From positions 1,426,001 through 1,490,000 of the forward strand of contig NZ_CP032549.1 in assembly GCF_012221945.1 (NCBI RefSeq): a DNA stretch of 64,000 bases, read 5' to 3'. Source of the DNA: Glutamicibacter mishrai (lineage in GTDB: Bacteria > Actinomycetota > Actinomycetes > Actinomycetales > Micrococcaceae). The notes under the pieces are model-generated. The model made no database searches. It saw only the letters and a program-made list of their open reading frames with translations, and had not been told where the DNA came from. The position numbers were made by a program, and so were the translations under genes. Position 1 is the stretch's first letter. The number at the start of each line of letters is the position of its first letter. Positions 7,399 through 17,515 of the stretch are shown here, piece by piece.

Positions 7399-9000
7399 TT
7401 AGTTCTGCCACGGGCGAGGCCCGCCAGCATCAAGCATGATGGATAGTGCCTGCGGCATGATCTCAGCCCGGAAGAACGTGGATTCTCCGGCGTAGTCACC
7501 ATCCAGCTGGCAGGCCACCGGCTGATCCGCTCGAATCTCAATGACCTGACCCTGCTGATGGCTCAGCGACTTCGCATCGGTGCCTAGGACAATTCCTCTA
7601 GCTATGGAGGCTAGTTCCCGAGCTCCGGTGGGCGAAGCGATCATGGCGTCGATCTTTCCATCTGTGGGGACGGCGGAAGGGATCAAGTTGATTCCACCCA
7701 TCAATCGGCCGACATTGCCAATGAGGGTCATGATCGAAGAATGGTGTTGAATCGGCTGGTCATCGATGGTGAGAGTACATTCAAAAGGTGTGAGGCTGAA
7801 CTGTTGTGCCGCAGCTACCACGTAGGCTACGGCTTTGATGGTCTTTTTCAACTCTGGATTGGTATTGCCCATAATCTTGGCATCAAAACCTAGACCACAC
7901 ATCACGGCGCAAACAGAGTTTCCTGCCTCAGTGGTGCAGCTGATCAAGTCAATGGGAACCGCTTCACCAGCAAGAGCGGTACGGATGGCTTCGCTCTCAT
8001 CTAGTGAGGCTCCAAGGTTCCTGGCTAACAGGTTTCCGGTACCCGCCGGAATCGGTGCAACCGGGATTCCTTGATTGGCTAATTCCTGGCAGACCATTCG
8101 AACCGTGCCGTCGCCTCCGGCCACGATCACCACATCAACGTTGGCATCGATAGCCTGCTGAGACATCTTGCCCCCGGGGTTTTCACGTTCGGTTTCTAGC
8201 CACAAAGGCGGCTTCCACCCTGCAGCTTGTAACTCGTACTCCACACGTCGTCTGAACAGCGCAAAGTCCAATACCTTGGTGGGGTTGTAAATTACCGCAG
8301 CACGCTTGTCACTTTGTTCAACGGGTAGGCCCAGCCCGGCCCACCCTTGAAGTATCGGACCTACCCCAGTAACCACAAGGACGCCGCTGGCCCACGTGAT
8401 TCCCAACAGGACTCCGCCAATGAGCTGGCTTGTTGTTTGGGTACGCATTATCCATTGATCGCCTAAGACCATGAGGATCAATAAGGTAGCAATAAGTCGC
8501 GAACGCAACGCTGAACTAGTTGTTAGTCGTTGTGCATGGCCCAGGGTCGCCAGCACCCAGGCAAGTACAGACACCGCCACCATATGGGCCGAGGGATAAG
8601 CGGAGATTTGATAGGTCAGCGAATCTTCAAAGGGCGAAGCTGGACGCGGCTGGTTGGTAATGAACTGAATCCCAGCGGTTATCGGAATAACGAAGGCTAC
8701 TGCTCCCAGTGCTCCGGCCAACCGTCGTATCCGGCGTCGCAAGGTCCACAATGCCATCGCCAGAATGAAAGCAAATACCAGCGCCGGATGAGTCAGCAGC
8801 GCAAACGCTTCGGCAATCTGTCCTGCAAAGCTGCGCGCATTGATCCACGGCGCCAGCGTCAGTTCATCAAGATCTTCTAATCCCCAGACTGTAGAGAGCA
8901 GAGTCCATCCAGTGAACAAGAAGATGAACTTCATGAAGAATCGGCCCTGCGCCAGTGACGCCAAATCAAAACGACCGAGAGGTTTCAAGATTCGCGTCAT
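7399..9000 (-). CDS. PAP2-like membrane domain fused to diacylglycerol/lipid kinase
   Basis: A 533-residue fusion. Residues 1 to about 225 form a multi-pass PAP2/phosphatidic-acid-phosphatase-like domain. The rest is a DAGK catalytic domain beginning RAAVIYNPTK, with the nucleotide-binding GGDGT (VVIVAGGDGTVRMV) and PIPAGTGNLLARNL, and the second lobe LGFDAKIMG. Such fusions are common in actinobacteria and act on lipid phosphates at the inner face of the membrane. The PAP2 half keeps QPRP and PSAH. However, the Lys of motif 1 is Gln, and motif 3 reads MRTQTTSQLIGG, where the family has an SR-x5-H-x3-D pattern; the nucleophilic His and the Asp are missing. The phosphatase half may therefore be a membrane anchor only. 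The kinase half looks intact. Confidence 0.85.
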   Translation of the reverse strand: MTRILKPLGRFDLASLAQGRFFMKFIFLFTGWTLLSTVWGLEDLDELTLAPWINARSFAGQIAEAFALLTHPALVFAFILAMALWTLRRRIRRLAGALGAVAFVIPITAGIQFITNQPRPASPFEDSLTYQISAYPSAHMVAVSVLAWVLATLGHAQRLTTSSALRSRLIATLLILMVLGDQWIMRTQTTSQLIGGVLLGITWASGVLVVTGVGPILQGWAGLGLPVEQSDKRAAVIYNPTKVLDFALFRRRVEYELQAAGWKPPLWLETERENPGGKMSQQAIDANVDVVIVAGGDGTVRMVCQELANQGIPVAPIPAGTGNLLARNLGASLDESEAIRTALAGEAVPIDLISCTTEAGNSVCAVMCGLGFDAKIMGNTNPELKKTIKAVAYVVAAAQQFSLTPFECTLTIDDQPIQHHSSIMTLIGNVGRLMGGINLIPSAVPTDGKIDAMIASPTGARELASIARGIVLGTDAKSLSHQQGQVIEIRADQPVACQLDGDYAGESTFFRAEIMPQALSIMLDAGGPRPWQN

Positions 9001-9063: not shown

Positions 9064-10476
9064 TTATCCCAGACGAATCTCATCAATACCGTCAAGATCC
9101 CACTGCCCGTCATCCCATTTCAAATTTTTGGCCAGTGGCAATTGATGAGAGGCACTTTCAATAATGTGCATCAGGTATCCCCCGGTATTTGGGAACGCCA
9201 CGATGTCGCCCTTGGCTACGCCTTGCGGGAATTCAAAGCGGCGGCGCAAGATGAGTTCTTCTTCAATGCAATAAGCACCTACGAGGAAGCCGCTGTACGG
9301 TGCGAGCTGTCTTGAATGTCTACCCGCCGTCTTGACCAGCAGTGGGTCAACTAGGAAATCTGCAGCCGTTGAACGGCACTGGGTGCGATTCATATGGAGA
9401 CCCACAAGGCTTACGCCATCACTGCGTTCCTTGGTGAAGGCCACCTGGGACAGCGTGAGCCCACAGCCATCGAGCAGTGAGCGCCCCGGTTCACACCTCA
9501 GCTGAATCCCGCGTTCATTGAGCATCTCGGCTACGCTTTGAGATCCATCGGCTCCCTTGGTAGTCAGGATCTGTTCTAGCCACGGACCACGAATCAACTG
9601 CTGGTGATACGGATATAGGGCCTTGCTGGCCTGCGGGCCCGTGGCACCAAGCCGATCAGCTTTCCAGGTCAAAGATTCGTCCCCCTCGGGCAGCTCGGCG
9701 AGCGCCTCCCAGAATCCTCTCCACTGGATTGAATCATCAAGATAAGACATGGGAATACCGCCGCCCATATCTACAAACTTCACCGAATGACCTTGCTGAC
9801 GCAGCGCATCAACTAAGTCCAGTGACTCCTGCAGCACTGCTGCGCGCTGCCCACCGTCGTAGCCGTTGAGGTGGAAGTGCACACCGATGACTTCGAGCGC
9901 CTTTTGATTGGTGACGCCACCCAAAAACTCCAGCCAACGCTCTGCGCTCAGTCCGAATCTGGTGGGTGGGATCTGCGGATCAGCAGAAGCCAGTCGCAGG
10001 GCAACCCGGGCTGGAGTGTTCGTAGCGTTAGCGATCTGAAGTAGATCATCTACTTCATCTTCATTATCTAGACTCAGCACCACATTGTTCTGGACTGCCA
10101 GCTCAAGTAGGGCTTGGGACTTCACCGCAGCGGTGACAATCAATGAATCGGAGCTGATTCCACGCTTCAGACACTGATCTAATTCGTGGAAGCTTGCTAC
10201 ATCCACTCCGCAGCCTTCGGCAAAAGCCTTGTCGATAGCACCAAGGGTCTTATTGGCCTTGCGCGCTAGATAGATTTGGAAGTCAACCTCATATTCAGCC
10301 GCTGCCTCACGTAGCTCGGTGATGTTCCGTGCCATCGATGAGAAGTTGTGAACGTTTAGTGGTGACCCATACTTGGTGAGTAGTTCTTGGCAGAGTTTAG
10401 GATTCTCAACAAGTTCTGTCATCCATGGTTCCAGACGGGCCGTCAGAGGTAGGGTTCCGTGCATCAGCGGTGGCAT
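9064..10476 (-). CDS. Y4yA-type PLP-dependent decarboxylase-like enzyme
   Basis: A 470-residue fold-type III PLP enzyme related to diaminopimelate/ornithine decarboxylases and SbnH. The PLP lysine lies in the N-terminal IYLARKANKTLGA, a variant of the usual YAxKAN. VHFHLNGYDG, FVDMGGGIP and CEPGRSLLDGCG follow as expected of the barrel. The C-terminal beta domain has YCIEEELILRR and FPNTGGYLMH. I place the start at ATG 10476, which overlaps the stop of the upstream gene (TGATG); the frame stays open to 10533. It is the last gene of a three-gene operon. It probably decarboxylates, or otherwise processes, an amino-acid intermediate made by the upstream SbnA-like enzyme. The substrate is unknown. 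Confidence 0.75.
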   Translation of the reverse strand: MPPLMHGTLPLTARLEPWMTELVENPKLCQELLTKYGSPLNVHNFSSMARNITELREAAAEYEVDFQIYLARKANKTLGAIDKAFAEGCGVDVASFHELDQCLKRGISSDSLIVTAAVKSQALLELAVQNNVVLSLDNEDEVDDLLQIANATNTPARVALRLASADPQIPPTRFGLSAERWLEFLGGVTNQKALEVIGVHFHLNGYDGGQRAAVLQESLDLVDALRQQGHSVKFVDMGGGIPMSYLDDSIQWRGFWEALAELPEGDESLTWKADRLGATGPQASKALYPYHQQLIRGPWLEQILTTKGADGSQSVAEMLNERGIQLRCEPGRSLLDGCGLTLSQVAFTKERSDGVSLVGLHMNRTQCRSTAADFLVDPLLVKTAGRHSRQLAPYSGFLVGAYCIEEELILRRRFEFPQGVAKGDIVAFPNTGGYLMHIIESASHQLPLAKNLKWDDGQWDLDGIDEIRLG

Positions 10477-12098
10477 CAATAAGCTACTTTCTGGCTTTGA
10501 ACGGTCACTTGCGTTGCAATGCGCTTGACCCATTCTCGGTACTCGGTATGCAAAGTTCGGTTCAAGGTGTCATGACCCAAGGTAGGGTCCTCCGTCGGAC
10601 GCCCCAGAGCGCTCAACGACTCATTGCGTTGGCCCTGTGAATCGATGCAGGTTCCGTCAGTGTCGGTGAGCAGTCCGCGCTCGCCGGACCTGATCATGAT
10701 TTCTCCTGCCGCCAACAGGCCATCAATGAGCGAGTTCGCTGGTTTGCCGTGAGGAGCTGCGGCGGTGAGCACGCCCGGCGCGGCAGTCACAGAGTCTATT
10801 TCAACGGTGTCTGTTCTTTGATCTTCGCCTTGATCAGTACTAGCTGTACTTGCTACGGATTGTTGGAGGCGCAGGATCCCCGCGTCGTGCAGGGCTAGCA
10901 GTTTTTGTGCTGTGGGCTCTGGTGGGCCAAAGGCCATACGTTCAAGGTTGCTTGCTGCTAGGTTAAATTCTCCTCGCTCGGTGTGGCTCCAGTTATATCT
11001 AGAGAGCGCACGGACCAGTTCTGAATATAGCTTTGACCAAGTTACCGCCCACACCCATTCATGGGTTCCGCTTACTAGTCCACGGTTAGCTTCCAGGCTA
11101 TAGCGTAATTGTTCAAAAGGTCGCTCATGTTCTGAGAATTGTGCGGATCTACCGGTACATACGGTGTCCCAGAGTGATTCCTTGGTGGCCGGTACGCCGC
11201 TGAAATCAGCGATGTGCTTCGCGCAGTCCAGCAGGATGCTCCACATTTTCCTAGTATAAGGCGTTGAAGAGCCCGCCCAGGCACGCAGTTGAGTTTGGTA
11301 AATGCCCAGAACGCTGTGCAGGTCTTCGCCAATGTCTCTTGGCTTTGGCGTCATCGCAATACCCTTGCGCGAAACCATCGTGATCAGCGCTGGCTCGTTT
11401 CCGCTGGGCAGATATCGCAGCGCACCCCCGGCATCATCGGCAACAGGTTCCCAACGGCCACCGCGCCCTTCGGTCAAGACCATGACCACGTCATAGGCTG
11501 TCAGTGCGGCACCGCGAATCTTGACCGTACTTCCAGCTGGTACTTGCGCGATGGCTTCAGGGGCTTGTTCCACGCTCAGCGCTGCTGCGGGAATTGTTGA
11601 AACCGGTTGCTCTTCATTCTTGTAGCCTGCCAACCCGTGGCCGGTAGCAAGGACAACTTCATCATAGAGTTCAGCACCAGAAGTCGTTGATACTGCCCAC
11701 TGTTCGCCTTGCCGTTGAACCCGCTGAACCACCAGCGGTCGATGGGATACCGATAGCTCACCGTGTTTGGTCAACAGTTCAAATTGCTCGCTGAGGTATG
11801 CGCCGACCTCGGCCCGTGGTGCAAAGACGTCTTGGATTTTATCCGAAGCATGCGGCTGCCTGTATTGATCAAACGTCTTTTCGCACAGACTAGAAGACGC
11901 GTCGATTATGCGCGAGTTGACGTTCAGCCTCAGTTCTTTGGGCTGCGTGGTATTCCATACCCGTCCGGCTCCCGGCGGGTAGGGGTCATAAACATCAACC
12001 TGAACAGTTTGGCCTTCGTTGTCGCTGAGCACATCGTTGAGTTCCAACAGAGCAAACAGACACTTTGGGCCGCCACCGACCATCGCTATGCGGATCAT
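10476..12098 (-). CDS. FAD/NAD(P)-binding protein (NAD_binding_9 type)
   Basis: A 540-residue protein opening with the Rossmann motif MIRIAMVGGGPKCLFALLEL, an acidic VDVYDPYPPGAG second strand, then LRLNVNSRIID and an ATGHGLAG segment. This organisation is typical of the FAD/NAD(P)-binding proteins of the pfam13454 group, distantly related to lysine/ornithine N-hydroxylases. It has no signal peptide. The ATG overlaps the stop of the upstream gene (ATGA), and its own stop overlaps the downstream start, so the three proteins are made together. It may oxidise or hydroxylate the amino-acid product of its partners. No experimentally characterised close relative comes to mind. Confidence 0.7.
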   Translation of the reverse strand: MIRIAMVGGGPKCLFALLELNDVLSDNEGQTVQVDVYDPYPPGAGRVWNTTQPKELRLNVNSRIIDASSSLCEKTFDQYRQPHASDKIQDVFAPRAEVGAYLSEQFELLTKHGELSVSHRPLVVQRVQRQGEQWAVSTTSGAELYDEVVLATGHGLAGYKNEEQPVSTIPAAALSVEQAPEAIAQVPAGSTVKIRGAALTAYDVVMVLTEGRGGRWEPVADDAGGALRYLPSGNEPALITMVSRKGIAMTPKPRDIGEDLHSVLGIYQTQLRAWAGSSTPYTRKMWSILLDCAKHIADFSGVPATKESLWDTVCTGRSAQFSEHERPFEQLRYSLEANRGLVSGTHEWVWAVTWSKLYSELVRALSRYNWSHTERGEFNLAASNLERMAFGPPEPTAQKLLALHDAGILRLQQSVASTASTDQGEDQRTDTVEIDSVTAAPGVLTAAAPHGKPANSLIDGLLAAGEIMIRSGERGLLTDTDGTCIDSQGQRNESLSALGRPTEDPTLGHDTLNRTLHTEYREWVKRIATQVTVQSQKVAY

Positions 12099-13093
12099 CG
12101 TTCAGCGCCAACTTCTAACTCAGACAAGTTCGCAGACTGAGGTGACTCACCAAGAGTTTTTTGCACCCATTCATCGTTGTAAACGGTGTGTAGATAGGGA
12201 ACCCCGGAATCGTGCACCAAGAAGGCAACCCGTGAGCCTTGGGGAATGCCTGGGAGCATTTTCCCCATGGCCGCGACAATTGCTCCGGTAGAGGCTCCGG
12301 CAAGGATGCCTTCCCGTTTGGCCAGTAGTCGGCAGCCACGAACCATCTCAATTTCAGGGATACGGAAAACTTCGTCGGGCTGCACTTCTAGGGACAGATC
12401 AGGGACGATTCCTGCGCCCAGACCGGGCAGGCGCCGTTCTGCCGATTGGCCACCAAAGAGCACTGAGCCAAGTGCATCCACCGCAATCAGTTTTGTTTTG
12501 AGCTGATGTTCTCGCACGTACTTTTGGCATCCGAGAATCGTGCCCGTGGTACTGGTGGCGACAAAGAGCATATCTAGATCTCCTCCCATCGCCTCCATAA
12601 TTTCTGGCATGGTCGTAGAGTAGTGAGCCTCAGGGTTGCGTGCGGATCCATACTGGTTGGTGGTCACCGCACCAGGGTTTTCGGACAGCAGTTGGGCGAC
12701 CCGTTTGCGGCGCGCGGCTAGCCTGTTGCCATCGGGTGGATCCATGACAAGATCTACGGTTGCTCCGTAGGCGCGCATGATGTCTAGAGCTGATTTGTTG
12801 GCGTTTTCATCAACCACGGCAACAAAGTTGATATCTCGCACGATGCATTGCCGGGCCAGTGAGATCCCCAAGTTACCTGAGGTTGATTCCACCACCATTC
12901 CGCCAGGCTTGAGTTCACCTGTTTCTAAGAACGCAGTGATCAGAGATTCAGCAGTGCGTTCCTTGGTGCTGCCAGAAAGTTGCAGTGAATCCAGCTTGGC
13001 GAAAAGCTCGATTTCACTTGAATCGAATAGCCTCTCAAGTTTCACAATCGGTGAATTGAAGGGTGTTAAAGCACCGGTAACTTCCATAGTCAC
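12095..13093 (-). CDS. SbnA-like PLP-dependent synthase (cysteine synthase family)
   Basis: A 332-residue fold-type II PLP enzyme. The Schiff-base lysine is in LSGSTKERTA, the substrate-carboxylate loop is VESTSGNLG, and the phosphate-binding glycine loop is ATSTTGTILG. GILAGASTGAIVAA near the C-terminus is also typical. The overall pattern fits SbnA, which joins O-phosphoserine and glutamate on the way to 2,3-diaminopropionate, better than CysK. No SbnB-like dehydrogenase is beside it; the next gene is an FAD/NAD(P)-binding protein. The start is GTG 13093 or ATG 13087; neither has a good ribosome-binding site. It heads the three-gene operon. Housekeeping cysteine synthase is unlikely given the context. 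Confidence 0.75.
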   Translation of the reverse strand: MTMEVTGALTPFNSPIVKLERLFDSSEIELFAKLDSLQLSGSTKERTAESLITAFLETGELKPGGMVVESTSGNLGISLARQCIVRDINFVAVVDENANKSALDIMRAYGATVDLVMDPPDGNRLAARRKRVAQLLSENPGAVTTNQYGSARNPEAHYSTTMPEIMEAMGGDLDMLFVATSTTGTILGCQKYVREHQLKTKLIAVDALGSVLFGGQSAERRLPGLGAGIVPDLSLEVQPDEVFRIPEIEMVRGCRLLAKREGILAGASTGAIVAAMGKMLPGIPQGSRVAFLVHDSGVPYLHTVYNDEWVQKTLGESPQSANLSELEVGAER

Positions 13094-13256: not shown

Positions 13257-14639
13257 TCAGCTGACGTTCTGAGATTCCTCCCTTACCAGGTGCTCAGACG
13301 GTGCAGTGTGGCCCTGATCTCGGTTTTTCCGTGACAGAGCCAGGTAGAGCAGGAAGCTGACAAAGAAGCATGGAACCGTGGCGCCAATTGGGCTGGGGAA
13401 CATGTAGGTCAGCAGGTAGGCGACAACCGCACCTGCCACCCACACGCCAACGGCAATCGGGTTCACTCCGTTGCGGTACCAGTAGGCACCACCGCTGTGG
13501 CGCAGGATGTCACGCGTGTAGCGCGAACGCTTAAGCAGGTAGTAGTCCACAATCATGATGGCGAAGACCGGAACGAAGAATGCACCGATGAGTGTCAAGA
13601 AATCAGTGAACTGATCCAGTAGTGCTAGCCAGGTAGCTCCGAGGATAGATACTGCGCCAACTACCAAAGCTGTGGCCAAGAACGGCAACTTACGTTCGGG
13701 ACGGGAGTTGACCACCGAGGTGATCATTCCGTAGACGGCCATTGTATTGGTAGCCATTACTGACAAGAAGATGGCGATAGCCAGTGGGGCACCAAAGGCT
13801 GCAACAAGAATTGTTGGGTCAAACTCTGTTGCTTGGCCACCGGAGAGGATGACGTACCCAATAGCAGTGGCGCCAAGGATCATGGCCAAGACGGTAGAAA
13901 GCGTATAGCCAATGCCTGAACCGACAATGCTGGCACGAGTATTGCGAGCCATACGGTTGATATCCGCCGAAAGCACGGTCCATGAAATCGCCGTGGCAAT
14001 CACGATATCCAGAACGATGAACGGTGTGTATCCAAGGGAGGCATCAACCGGAATCGCAGCAAACTCTTCAGGATTATATTTGCCGAAGGCCATGGCAAAG
14101 ACGTAGGCCATGATGGCCAAGATCAAGACAGCAAGCCAGGGTTCAACTTTCGAAATTCCTTCATGCCCAAACAGTGCCAGAGTCACGACAAAGACTTGGC
14201 AGATCACGGAGAATAGGACGGGATTGCTGAACCCGGTCAGCGAATCAACGAGGTAGTTGACGGTGACGCCTGCCAGCATGGCCTGCACCCAGCTCCAGCC
14301 CATCAGCACGATGACATTGGCTGCCACCGGCAGCAAGCTACCGCGAGCACCAAAGGCACCGCGTGTGATGGCCATGGTGGGCAGCCCGGTACGAGTGCCG
14401 ATGTTTCCTACCAGGACCAAGATGACGGCACCGATTAGCGTGCCGACAACAATCATCACCAGTGCAAGTGAGAAGTTCAGTCCGGGCACAAAGAATGTGC
14501 CGGTCAAGAGCGTGGTCACCACGAGGTTGGCTGCTAGCCAGATCATGCCAATACGCCCGGTGCCCAGCTGTCCGCGAATCGGGCCGGAGCTTTCGGCGCC
14601 GGCTTCTAGCTTCTGTTCAAATTTGCGGTAGAGATTCAT
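13257..14639 (-). CDS. NCS1-family purine/cytosine permease
   Basis: A 460-residue permease with about 12 membrane segments. The N-terminal RIGMIWLAANLVVTTLLTG, the TRTGLPTMAITRGAFGARGS loop and the GWSWVQ motif are typical of the CodB/CytX branch of nucleobase:cation symporters. It should import a nucleobase, hydroxymethylpyrimidine, allantoin or a related heterocycle. Its ATG overlaps the stop of the NTF2-like gene (ATGA), so the two form a pair. The pair is divergent from an XRE-cupin regulator that probably controls it. The substrate cannot be told from sequence. Confidence 0.85.
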   Translation of the reverse strand: MNLYRKFEQKLEAGAESSGPIRGQLGTGRIGMIWLAANLVVTTLLTGTFFVPGLNFSLALVMIVVGTLIGAVILVLVGNIGTRTGLPTMAITRGAFGARGSLLPVAANVIVLMGWSWVQAMLAGVTVNYLVDSLTGFSNPVLFSVICQVFVVTLALFGHEGISKVEPWLAVLILAIMAYVFAMAFGKYNPEEFAAIPVDASLGYTPFIVLDIVIATAISWTVLSADINRMARNTRASIVGSGIGYTLSTVLAMILGATAIGYVILSGGQATEFDPTILVAAFGAPLAIAIFLSVMATNTMAVYGMITSVVNSRPERKLPFLATALVVGAVSILGATWLALLDQFTDFLTLIGAFFVPVFAIMIVDYYLLKRSRYTRDILRHSGGAYWYRNGVNPIAVGVWVAGAVVAYLLTYMFPSPIGATVPCFFVSFLLYLALSRKNRDQGHTAPSEHLVREESQNVS

Positions 14640-15085
14640 GCGGTCTCACCGGTGGCTTCAGTTGCCGCTTGCTCCGGCACGGTTGAAAGGTGCTCGTGGA
14701 TTGCAATGAGTGAACCGTCTGCTTCGAGGCGGAAAACGATAGTTTCACGTTCTACGTAAGAGTCAATGGTGTAGTTCTCTGGATCATTTCCACTGCGCGT
14801 TTGTGTTGCCACGCTGTGGCTGAAGACTGCACCGCCAGCGAAAACATGAACGAGTTGGTCAGTGGACTGGCAACCGGTAACCTGCCATCCATCAGCTAGC
14901 CAGCTGCCCCAAAGCTTTTCGTAGCTAGCGCGATCATCTAAGCGGGATGCTTCGGGATGAAAAATGAAGGATGCGTCTGGCGCGAAGTGTGAGAAGTATT
15001 CTTCAGTGTTTGTCGTGCCAAATGCTTCTACGATCTTGGCGGCGGCGGCCAGTACGTCGCTTTCGGTAGGTGCAACTGTGCTCAA
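14636..15085 (-). CDS. Nuclear transport factor 2 / SnoaL-like protein
   Basis: A 149-residue small alpha+beta-barrel protein of the NTF2-like superfamily. It has a conserved N-terminal helix with YFSHFAPDASFIFHP, then LWGSWLADGWQV, and a C-terminal strand set with IDSYVERETIVFRLE. I choose the TTG at 15085 (LSTVAPTESD) because GGGAGAA sits five bases before it; the open frame reaches 15163 without a ribosome-binding site. Members bind small hydrophobic or heterocyclic molecules and may be hydrolases, isomerases or simple binding proteins. It is coupled to the NCS1 permease and presumably handles the imported compound. Confidence 0.7.
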   Translation of the reverse strand: MSTVAPTESDVLAAAAKIVEAFGTTNTEEYFSHFAPDASFIFHPEASRLDDRASYEKLWGSWLADGWQVTGCQSTDQLVHVFAGGAVFSHSVATQTRSGNDPENYTIDSYVERETIVFRLEADGSLIAIHEHLSTVPEQAATEATGETA

Positions 15086-15273
15086 CGGTTCTCCCAAGGC
15101 TGAGGTCCGGATTCGGACGCTTCTAGGTAGGCATATGGCGTGAGGTGGATTACCTATATGCATTTTTTGTTTACCCTAGGTGATCAATTGGTGCCGGTCA
15201 ATGAATTTCGCTCATATGACAGGTGCCCTATTACCCCGAAGTTACGGTCATTCCGGACACTAAATATGGGCTT

Positions 15274-15910: not shown

Positions 15911-16619
15911 GCTGACCCCCACCGAATTCCTCTACGGCTGCTCTATTGACCCGTCAGTCCTAGAACTACGCCCGGACTACCGCGCACTGTTGCTGGTGGT
16001 TGAAGGTATCGACCCACGGGCGAATTCTGAGATTGCTCATGAATTGATCAACAAGGCAGAAGCCCACGCTAATGAGCTGCTGGCCGCGACCCCAGTGGAC
16101 CAGTTGCCACAGATCAGCGCCTGGCGCGAGGCCTACCGCGGTTTTGGTGCCAAGCCTCAGCGCACCCGCAATAGCCTCGAAGCACTCACTCGTCGCGCGG
16201 GTGCAGGGTTACCGCGTGTGAATGCATTGACTGATATTTACAACGCCATTTCTGTACTACATCAAATTCCGCTTGGTGGTGAAGACTTTGATCTCTACGA
16301 CGGACCGGCCACGCTCACCCGTGCTACCGGGGATGAATCCTTTGATACGACCGCTGGCGGCGAAGTGGTGCTTGAAAACCCTGAAACAGGCGAAGTGATT
16401 TGGCGAGATAACACCGGGGTGACCTGCCGCCGCTGGAACTGGCGCCAAGGTAAGCGCACCGCGCTGTCCCAAGACACCACTAATGCTTTCTTCATCTTGG
16501 ATGCTTTGGCACCCATGAGCGATGAAGAGCTGGAGGCGACCGGCGAAGCCTTGAGCCAAGCCTTGGAGTCTTTGGGCACCGCAGTACAAGTTTCCAAGCG
16601 GATGGTAGGTGCCCAGTGA
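15900..16619 (+). CDS. Stand-alone B3/B4 tRNA-editing domain protein
   Basis: A 239-residue protein of the B3/B4 domain family, homologous to the editing domain of the PheRS beta chain. The family signature is present: AYRGFGAKPQRTRNSLEAL, GLPRVNALTDIYNAIS, PLGGEDFDLYDG and GVTCRRWNWRQGKRT. In PheRS this domain hydrolyses mischarged aminoacyl-tRNA; for free-standing copies the role is poorly known, though removal of a misacylated amino acid is a natural guess. It overlaps the XRE-cupin gene upstream and its stop overlaps the GTG of the EamA exporter (GTGA). Coupling to an amino-acid-type exporter suggests defence against an unusual amino acid. Confidence 0.85.
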   Translation: MTNRLTPTEFLYGCSIDPSVLELRPDYRALLLVVEGIDPRANSEIAHELINKAEAHANELLAATPVDQLPQISAWREAYRGFGAKPQRTRNSLEALTRRAGAGLPRVNALTDIYNAISVLHQIPLGGEDFDLYDGPATLTRATGDESFDTTAGGEVVLENPETGEVIWRDNTGVTCRRWNWRQGKRTALSQDTTNAFFILDALAPMSDEELEATGEALSQALESLGTAVQVSKRMVGAQ

Positions 16620-17515
16620 GCCCTCGCTCAACACTGAACGGTCTGCCGCCGTGGACCTTGGCAGTTACCGCGATGCTGGCAGTCCAGCTATCCAACGCCA
16701 CGTCCGTCTTTGTCATCGGGCAGGTTGGCGCCGGCGGCACAGCATGGCTACGTATGTGCTTTGGTGTTGTTTTCCTTTGGATCATCGCGCGCCCAAAGTT
16801 CCGCTCTATTCGCAAGCAAGACATCCCAGCGCTGATCGGGCTAGGCGTGGTCACCGGTTTTATGACCGCGTTGTTCCTCGAAGCCGTTGACCGCATCCCT
16901 CTGGGCACTGCCGTATCCATCGAGTTCCTCGGTCCGCTCACTGTTGCGGGGATCATGAGCAAAAACCGCAAGGCGTTGATATGGCCAATTTTGGCCGTTC
17001 TAGGCGTTGTACTGCTCACCGAACCGTGGCACGGGAAAATCGACGGCGTAGGTGTGCTGTTCGCATTGGGTGCCGGAACCTGTTGGGGTTTGTACAACAT
17101 ACTCACTCAACACGTTGGTGATCGTTTCTCGGGAATCAGCGGCTTGTCGCTGACCATTCCCGTGGCTGCCATCGCAACGATGCCGGTGGGTTTGCCACAA
17201 GTTATCAGCCACGATTTTGCGTGGTGGACTCTGCCCGCTGCCGCAGGCATTGCCCTCATCACCCCGGTCATCGCCTTTGGACTGGAGATGCTGGCCCTGA
17301 AACGAATGACGCACACCGCTTTTGGTACATTGCTTTCCATCGAACCGGCCTTTGGAATTCTTATCGGATTGCTCGTTTTGGCCCAGACTCCAAGCTGGCT
17401 CCAGGCCCTTGGCATCATTATCGTGATCGCTGCCGGAGCCGGGGCACAGCGAGGGGGCCGGCGTAAGAGTCAGGATCTTGCGTTCACTGATTTACCCTTA
17501 GAAACTCAAAAATAG
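16616..17515 (+). CDS. EamA-family exporter (RhtA-like)
   Basis: A 299-residue DMT-superfamily permease with ten hydrophobic segments in two EamA repeats. Typical segments are AVQLSNATSVFVIGQVGAGG, ALFLEAVDRIPLGTAVSIEF and LLSIEPAFGILIGLLVL. The closest well-known family member is RhtA, the threonine/homoserine exporter. GTG 16616 overlaps the upstream stop. As the last gene of the XRE-cupin operon it probably exports an amino acid or analogue from the cytoplasm. No terminator of note follows. Confidence 0.85.
   Translation: MSPRSTLNGLPPWTLAVTAMLAVQLSNATSVFVIGQVGAGGTAWLRMCFGVVFLWIIARPKFRSIRKQDIPALIGLGVVTGFMTALFLEAVDRIPLGTAVSIEFLGPLTVAGIMSKNRKALIWPILAVLGVVLLTEPWHGKIDGVGVLFALGAGTCWGLYNILTQHVGDRFSGISGLSLTIPVAAIATMPVGLPQVISHDFAWWTLPAAAGIALITPVIAFGLEMLALKRMTHTAFGTLLSIEPAFGILIGLLVLAQTPSWLQALGIIIVIAAGAGAQRGGRRKSQDLAFTDLPLETQK

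Follow-up and report, generated by a model that had tools for sequence, protein, structure and literature searches.

A three-gene operon of Glutamicibacter mishrai, conserved across phyla, that joins SbnA-like and Y4yA-type enzymes to an FzmM-type flavoprotein

The staphyloferrin B module of Staphylococcus aureus comprises SbnA, SbnB and SbnH, the last a pyridoxal 5′-phosphate (PLP) decarboxylase, and the L-alanosine pathway involves diaminopropionate and N-oxygenation chemistry. N-hydroxylases of the FzmM/CreE/PcxL type include the L-aspartate N-hydroxylase FzmM (PMC10404684). Rhizobactin consists of ethylenediamine with alanine, lysine and malic acid (available text of PMC7676072), and an ethylenediamine core is indicated by the names of the aminopolycarboxylate metallophores [S,S]-EDDS and EDHA (available text of PMC8914351 and PMC9252823), the EDHA operon having four genes, AesA-AesD (available text of PMC10702961). 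Here we describe an operon of three genes (the trio) from Glutamicibacter mishrai, found in a window of 64,000 nucleotides (the whole stretch analysed, 1.426-1.490 Mb of a 3.57 Mb genome). Its products are an SbnA-like enzyme, a flavoprotein and a Y4yA-type decarboxylase. The trio resembles the staphyloferrin B module in its SbnA-type first step and O-phosphoserine-selecting residues, but lacks SbnB and a non-ribosomal peptide synthetase (NRPS)-independent siderophore (NIS) synthetase, and has a flavin N-oxygenase-like protein instead.

All three genes are on the reverse strand. The first (window positions 12095-13093, 332 amino acids) encodes an SbnA-like PLP-dependent beta-substitution enzyme, assigned by Pfam PALP, the SbnA profile and conserved residues. 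The second (10476-12098, 540 amino acids) encodes a protein for flavin adenine dinucleotide (FAD) and NADPH of family PF13454 (NAD_binding_9) with the fold of FzmM-type N-hydroxylases, and the third (9064-10476) a Y4yA-type fold III PLP decarboxylase (Orn_Arg_deC_N). A preliminary description of the window had the genes overlapping by 1-4 nt, which is what the sequence contains: the stop codon of the SbnA gene and the ATG of the flavoprotein gene (12098-12096) overlap by 4 nt (ATGA, 12098-12095), and the flavoprotein stop codon (TGA, 10478-10476) shares 1 nt with the likely decarboxylase start (ATG, 10476-10474; TGATG). The longest decarboxylase open reading frame (ORF) begins at 10533 and would overlap the flavoprotein gene by 58 nt; in two relatives (L027 and L028) the decarboxylase ORF begins at the final nucleotide of the flavoprotein ORF.

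Bacteria that are only distantly related carry the trio in an identical gene order, and the arrangement is far from a chance one. Genome contigs were scanned with an alignment of trio-type decarboxylases and the best 80 of 134 confirmed relatives were kept, so that the scan demonstrates linkage for this kind of decarboxylase and not for every Y4yA protein. Among these 80, the flavoprotein is present in all 79 testable loci (L042 starts at the decarboxylase) and SbnA in all 77 with a contig long enough. The flavoprotein is partial at contig edges in L034 and L059 and in two frames in L056, while in L052 and L065 it shares one ORF with the decarboxylase. The residue counts and the tree given below are for 77 rows, which take in the window, L021 and L022 and omit L034, L042 and L059 (contig edge), L044 (decarboxylase cut), L056, L061 and the non-trio loci L023-L025. 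A further, independent set of 297 genomes from the order was searched with the flavoprotein and the decarboxylase at E 1e-25; the flavoprotein was found in 30 genomes, the decarboxylase in 29 and both in 25; in these 25 the listed coordinates place the two genes within 0.7 kb on one strand. Conservation of the three genes as a unit, which the preliminary description had proposed to look for, is borne out. A decarboxylase had no separate flavoprotein match in four of the 29 genomes: one carries a fusion (G212), and the other three (G032, G138 and G166) hold relatives of 30-32% identity; the stretches read there contain a divergent SbnA-like gene but lack a flavoprotein. Divergent Y4yA and SbnA-like pairs with no flavoprotein or SbnB-like gene in view were seen at L113 (6144-8811), L114 (5926-8987) and L112 (4439-7160), the stretch of L112 stopping directly after the SbnA-like gene. 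Five genomes (G019, G023, G192, G261 and G278) have a flavoprotein relative of 30-34% identity, with neither SbnA nor Y4yA matched in the stretches examined.

Within the genus a full-length flavoprotein was found in 10 of 18 genomes, a patchy distribution, and at the phylum level the trio is rare (4 of 396 at E 1e-60, including the host genome). It is also borne on plasmids of Tsukamurella and Sulfitobacter, and no viral relative was confirmed. In the flavoprotein tree, a quick search with Shimodaira-Hasegawa-like approximate likelihood ratio (SH-aLRT) support only, the Actinomycetota lie on one side of a branch with support of 98, the Pseudomonadota form a group (98) and the Bacteroidota with one Chloroflexota row form a third (100); two Planctomycetota rows are among the rest, and the Planctomycetota and Chloroflexota rows come from metagenome bins. 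L044 carries the label Acidobacteria but is probably misbinned; its decarboxylase and that of the window are 58% identical. Correlations of 0.90-0.93 between the pairwise distances of the proteins over the 77 rows are weak evidence of co-evolution, since shared species history could yield the same values.

Fusions are the strongest sign that the flavoprotein and the decarboxylase share a pathway. A search with a fused Kocuria protein returned 68 proteins, 33 of which (the query's own cluster counted) contain both PF13454 and PF02784; in all 33 both parts match the window proteins, in the order flavoprotein then decarboxylase, and the sources include Kocuria, Brachybacterium and Corynebacterium. 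In G212 the SbnA gene is followed by a single ORF of 896 residues that encodes both. The nearest relatives of the fused flavoproteins of L052 and L065 in the tree are unfused (Kocuria L046 and L057, and Tsukamurella L021), which suggests that the fusion arose more than once. An apparent SbnA-flavoprotein fusion (P0180) was rejected, as the chain seems to leave frame after about residue 182.

The likeness of the first enzyme to SbnA, proposed in the preliminary description, is upheld by its best solved match, S. aureus SbnA (E 7.9e-57; best cysteine synthase 7.1e-43). Its best NCBIfam match is also SbnA (TIGR03945), at 343.7 bits against a cut-off of 349.95, 6 bits short. Four of seven further trio SbnA proteins pass this cut-off (L022, 358; L069, 392.6; L101, 420; L064, 386), from Sulfitobacter, Sphingobacterium, a planctomycete and a chloroflexote, and three fall below it (L021, 344; L027, 346.9; L038, 317.6); the two non-trio proteins scanned (L023 and L025) had no TIGR03945 match at 1e-80. 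Residues Arg132, Tyr152 and Ser185 of SbnA are named as responsible for selective O-phosphoserine binding (available text of PMC12414870); they align with Arg128, Tyr148 and Ser181 of the window protein and are kept in 77/77 rows. Formation of N-(1-amino-1-carboxy-2-ethyl)-glutamic acid (ACEGA) by this enzyme is a well-supported prediction from these residues.

The third gene, described beforehand as a fold-type III PLP decarboxylase, is indeed one: the Y4yA-type hallmarks are present (PLP lysine, histidine, EPGR, catalytic cysteine and tyrosine), and Lys92 (the PLP lysine), His221, Glu348, Arg351, Cys422 and Tyr453 are found in every row (77/77). The protein aligns with solved diaminopimelate decarboxylases mainly over the barrel domain. 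The Sinorhizobium and Mycobacterium avium proteins deviate at residues 382-385 (Asn-Arg-Thr-Gln) and at His456, which points to a different substrate for the window protein.

By structural comparison the flavoprotein has the FzmM fold along its full length, with about 20% identity. Its Asn59 corresponds to the catalytic Asn62 that lies over the flavin in FzmM and is invariant (77/77), and it has basic residues where FzmM has Arg13, Arg266 and Arg577. The FzmM substrate cluster Arg409/Arg412/Asn413/Arg416 corresponds to positions 355/358/359/362 of the window protein, which are Ser/Tyr/Ser/Val, and the commonest residues there are Arg (35 of the 77 rows), Tyr (45), Pro (38) and Val (31), so that the position of Arg409 is Arg in fewer than half of the rows and those of the other three differ; the comparison leaves out FzmM Arg276, which is not mappable. 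As the cluster is mostly replaced, the substrate is not readable from FzmM, and on its sequence the protein is a relative of the aspartate N-hydroxylases and not itself classed as one. The preliminary description had a compound oxidised by the flavoprotein; the FzmM fold refines this, making N-oxygenation a more likely role than generic oxidation. A second flavoprotein match in the host genome lies within a frame of 674 residues (L020, G000:C1:2307052-2307903), and similar second matches occur in most genomes of the genus. On a Streptomyces protein (P0185) PF13454 shares a chain with PF06368 (methylaspartate mutase E), and this protein might oxygenate methylaspartate. On the Tsukamurella plasmid pTpau01 (L021, 8493-9938) the annotated hypothetical TPAU_RS23660 spans only the 3′ half of the open flavoprotein frame.

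Whether the trio is a self-contained biosynthetic unit, combining an SbnA-type adduct with Y4yA decarboxylation and FzmM-type N-oxygenation, is a question we judge evenly balanced. The enzyme classes are computed; from them we infer the substrates, the order of the steps and the product. After ACEGA formation, the Y4yA-type enzyme would engage the serine-derived half through its free alpha-amine, as a Schiff base, and remove the carboxyl from it, and the flavoenzyme would add oxygen to nitrogen with NADPH and O2, these being steps 2 and 3 in either order. The need of a PLP decarboxylase for a free alpha-amine means that N-oxygenation before decarboxylation would have to hit the secondary (glutamyl) nitrogen; that nitrogen could be the target in either order, or the new primary amine if oxygenation comes last. 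The predicted product is N-(2-aminoethyl)-glutamate in N-hydroxylated, oxime or nitrone form, or else N-hydroxyethylenediamine and 2-oxoglutarate from the breakdown of that compound. SbnA and Y4yA would then be a module for aminoethyl-amino acids, with a third enzyme, here an N-oxygenase, setting their fate. The product is probably a small nitrogen-oxygenated molecule. More tentatively, and at somewhat less than even confidence, we propose an old, free-standing pathway with a minimal set of genes, common to several phyla, from phosphoserine and glutamate to an N-oxygenated aminoethyl compound with no linked ligase or transporter, whose product may be a new natural product (a signal, chelator or antimetabolite). 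Several points weigh against the biosynthetic reading: the FzmM substrate cluster is mostly replaced, bacillithiol disulfide reductases and flavin monooxygenases stand directly below FzmM in the VIA-align ranking, a shared fold by itself demonstrates no reaction, the SbnA proteins of the window, L021, L027 and L038 are under the equivalog cut-off, that of the window just so, and, unexpectedly for a secreted product, the neighbour ORFs scanned include no recurrent family of exporters or importers immediately next to the unit.

Neighbouring ORFs were clustered from 86 sources (80 loci, 5 plasmid loci and the window), mostly over 8 kb on each side. A recurring fourth partner, which had been suggested as a search target, was not found at a fixed place either in this clustering or by Pfam among 76 nearby ORFs transcribed in the same direction (34 downstream and 42 upstream, drawn from 77 loci), and a short or divergent partner could be missed by the mechanical gene calling. 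The largest families besides the trio, a short-chain dehydrogenase (13 sources), TonB-plug outer-membrane proteins (9, Bacteroidota), ABC ATPases (8) and a sigma-factor-like family (5), vary in position among loci; among the close ORFs, catalase occurred in four and no other family in more than two (among 25 of 47 families listed). No exporter recurred among the scanned neighbours, and no exporter-family search of the host genome was made. Matches in the host genome to IucA/IucC (one, 2.73 Mb), the Condensation domain (one, 1.63 Mb) and Peripla_BP_2 (five, the nearest at 1.515 Mb, about 76 kb from the operon) show that neither a NIS ligase nor a siderophore-binding protein is linked to the operon. 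The absence from the window of an NRPS, a NIS synthetase and a siderophore transporter, as first described, therefore stands for the two synthetases and for siderophore-binding proteins; other transporter families were not searched. Likewise SbnB is replaced by an unrelated flavoprotein, as had been stated, the sole match of the host genome to the ornithine cyclodeaminase (OCD) family, to which SbnB belongs, being about 0.57 Mb away.

That the flavoprotein substitutes for SbnB in function is unlikely. It would oxidise the secondary amine of ACEGA to give L-2,3-diaminopropionate (or its N3-hydroxy form) and 2-oxoglutarate, and the third enzyme would give ethylenediamine (or N-hydroxyethylenediamine). 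The M. avium plasmid pMAH135 (L023, 6325-11816) carries consecutive SbnA-like, OCD-like, Y4yA and MATE genes, not far from copper-related ones, which may be a metallophore operon, and the flavoprotein occupies the place of its OCD-like gene; but the closest structural relative of the flavoprotein oxygenates nitrogen, and the window has no NIS synthetase or NRPS condensation domain to use diaminopropionate. A product that chelates metals as aminopolycarboxylates and rhizobactin do ([S,S]-EDDS, EDHA or rhizobactin) is rather less likely; an N-hydroxy group might then provide an additional ligand. For this speak the ethylenediamine group of rhizobactin and the Y4yA and SbnA-like pairs of Nitratireductor and Sinorhizobium, which stand in NIS siderophore-type clusters where an opine dehydrogenase and IucA/IucC replace the flavoprotein, the Sinorhizobium locus adding an MFS protein and a TonB receptor. 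By their layout these clusters appear rhizobactin-like, and both shared proteins are about 30% identical to those of the window. The predicted product would share the ethylenediamine core of EDDS and EDHA; the available text of PMC9252823, PMC10486106, PMC9248904, PMC8914351, PMC10702961, PMC6103462 and PMC4993170 did not say what the genes for either metallophore encode.

TonB-linked outer-membrane proteins are numerous in Bacteroidota. Nine Bacteroidota loci have one in the stretch read (one of the nine Pfam-checked), which would suit a chelator, but their distance and strand vary and none is joined to the unit; nor does any transporter family recur directly beside it or a siderophore-binding protein lie within about 76 kb in the host genome. 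It is improbable that the flavoprotein, like FzmM with aspartate, has a separate amino acid as its substrate and supplies an N-oxidised compound to the other two enzymes: the fold would allow it, but the aspartate-binding cluster is mostly replaced and no lyase-like partner recurs among the clustered neighbours. An ordinary cysteine synthase beside unrelated neighbours, the finding by which the preliminary description would fall, merits almost no credence. SbnA does belong to the CysK superfamily, but the three other CysK-like proteins of the host genome are only 27-32% identical to the first enzyme, and the co-occurrence, conserved adjacency and fusions contradict it. The original idea of a pathway for a modified diamine or amino acid is supported in part: its enzyme types and conserved unit hold, and no recurring fourth partner was found among the neighbours.

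Around the operon, positions 7399-9000 encode a lipid kinase of the YegS type (DAGK_cat, YegS_C) whose N-terminal part is PAP2-like but scores below the PAP2 cut-off, with clustered relatives in L026 and L028 only. Upstream, 13257-15163 holds an NCS1-type permease (Pfam) and a small ORF of SnoaL-like appearance (not scanned), clustered with L026-L028 only. On the opposite strand, 3.5 kb from the operon, an ORF (16616-17515) resembles an EamA-type exporter by eye (not scanned), with relatives in L026, L027 and L050 only.

Each enzyme of the trio is of a known kind; their combination was not found in the openly licensed papers searched, including the available text of PMC12096840 and PMC11479980, and is conserved across phyla. 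With only three proteins, the system lends itself to reconstitution in vitro. Its solution would assign one product to many genomes, help to identify the reaction catalysed by Y4yA proteins and reveal how SbnA adducts can be processed in the absence of SbnB.
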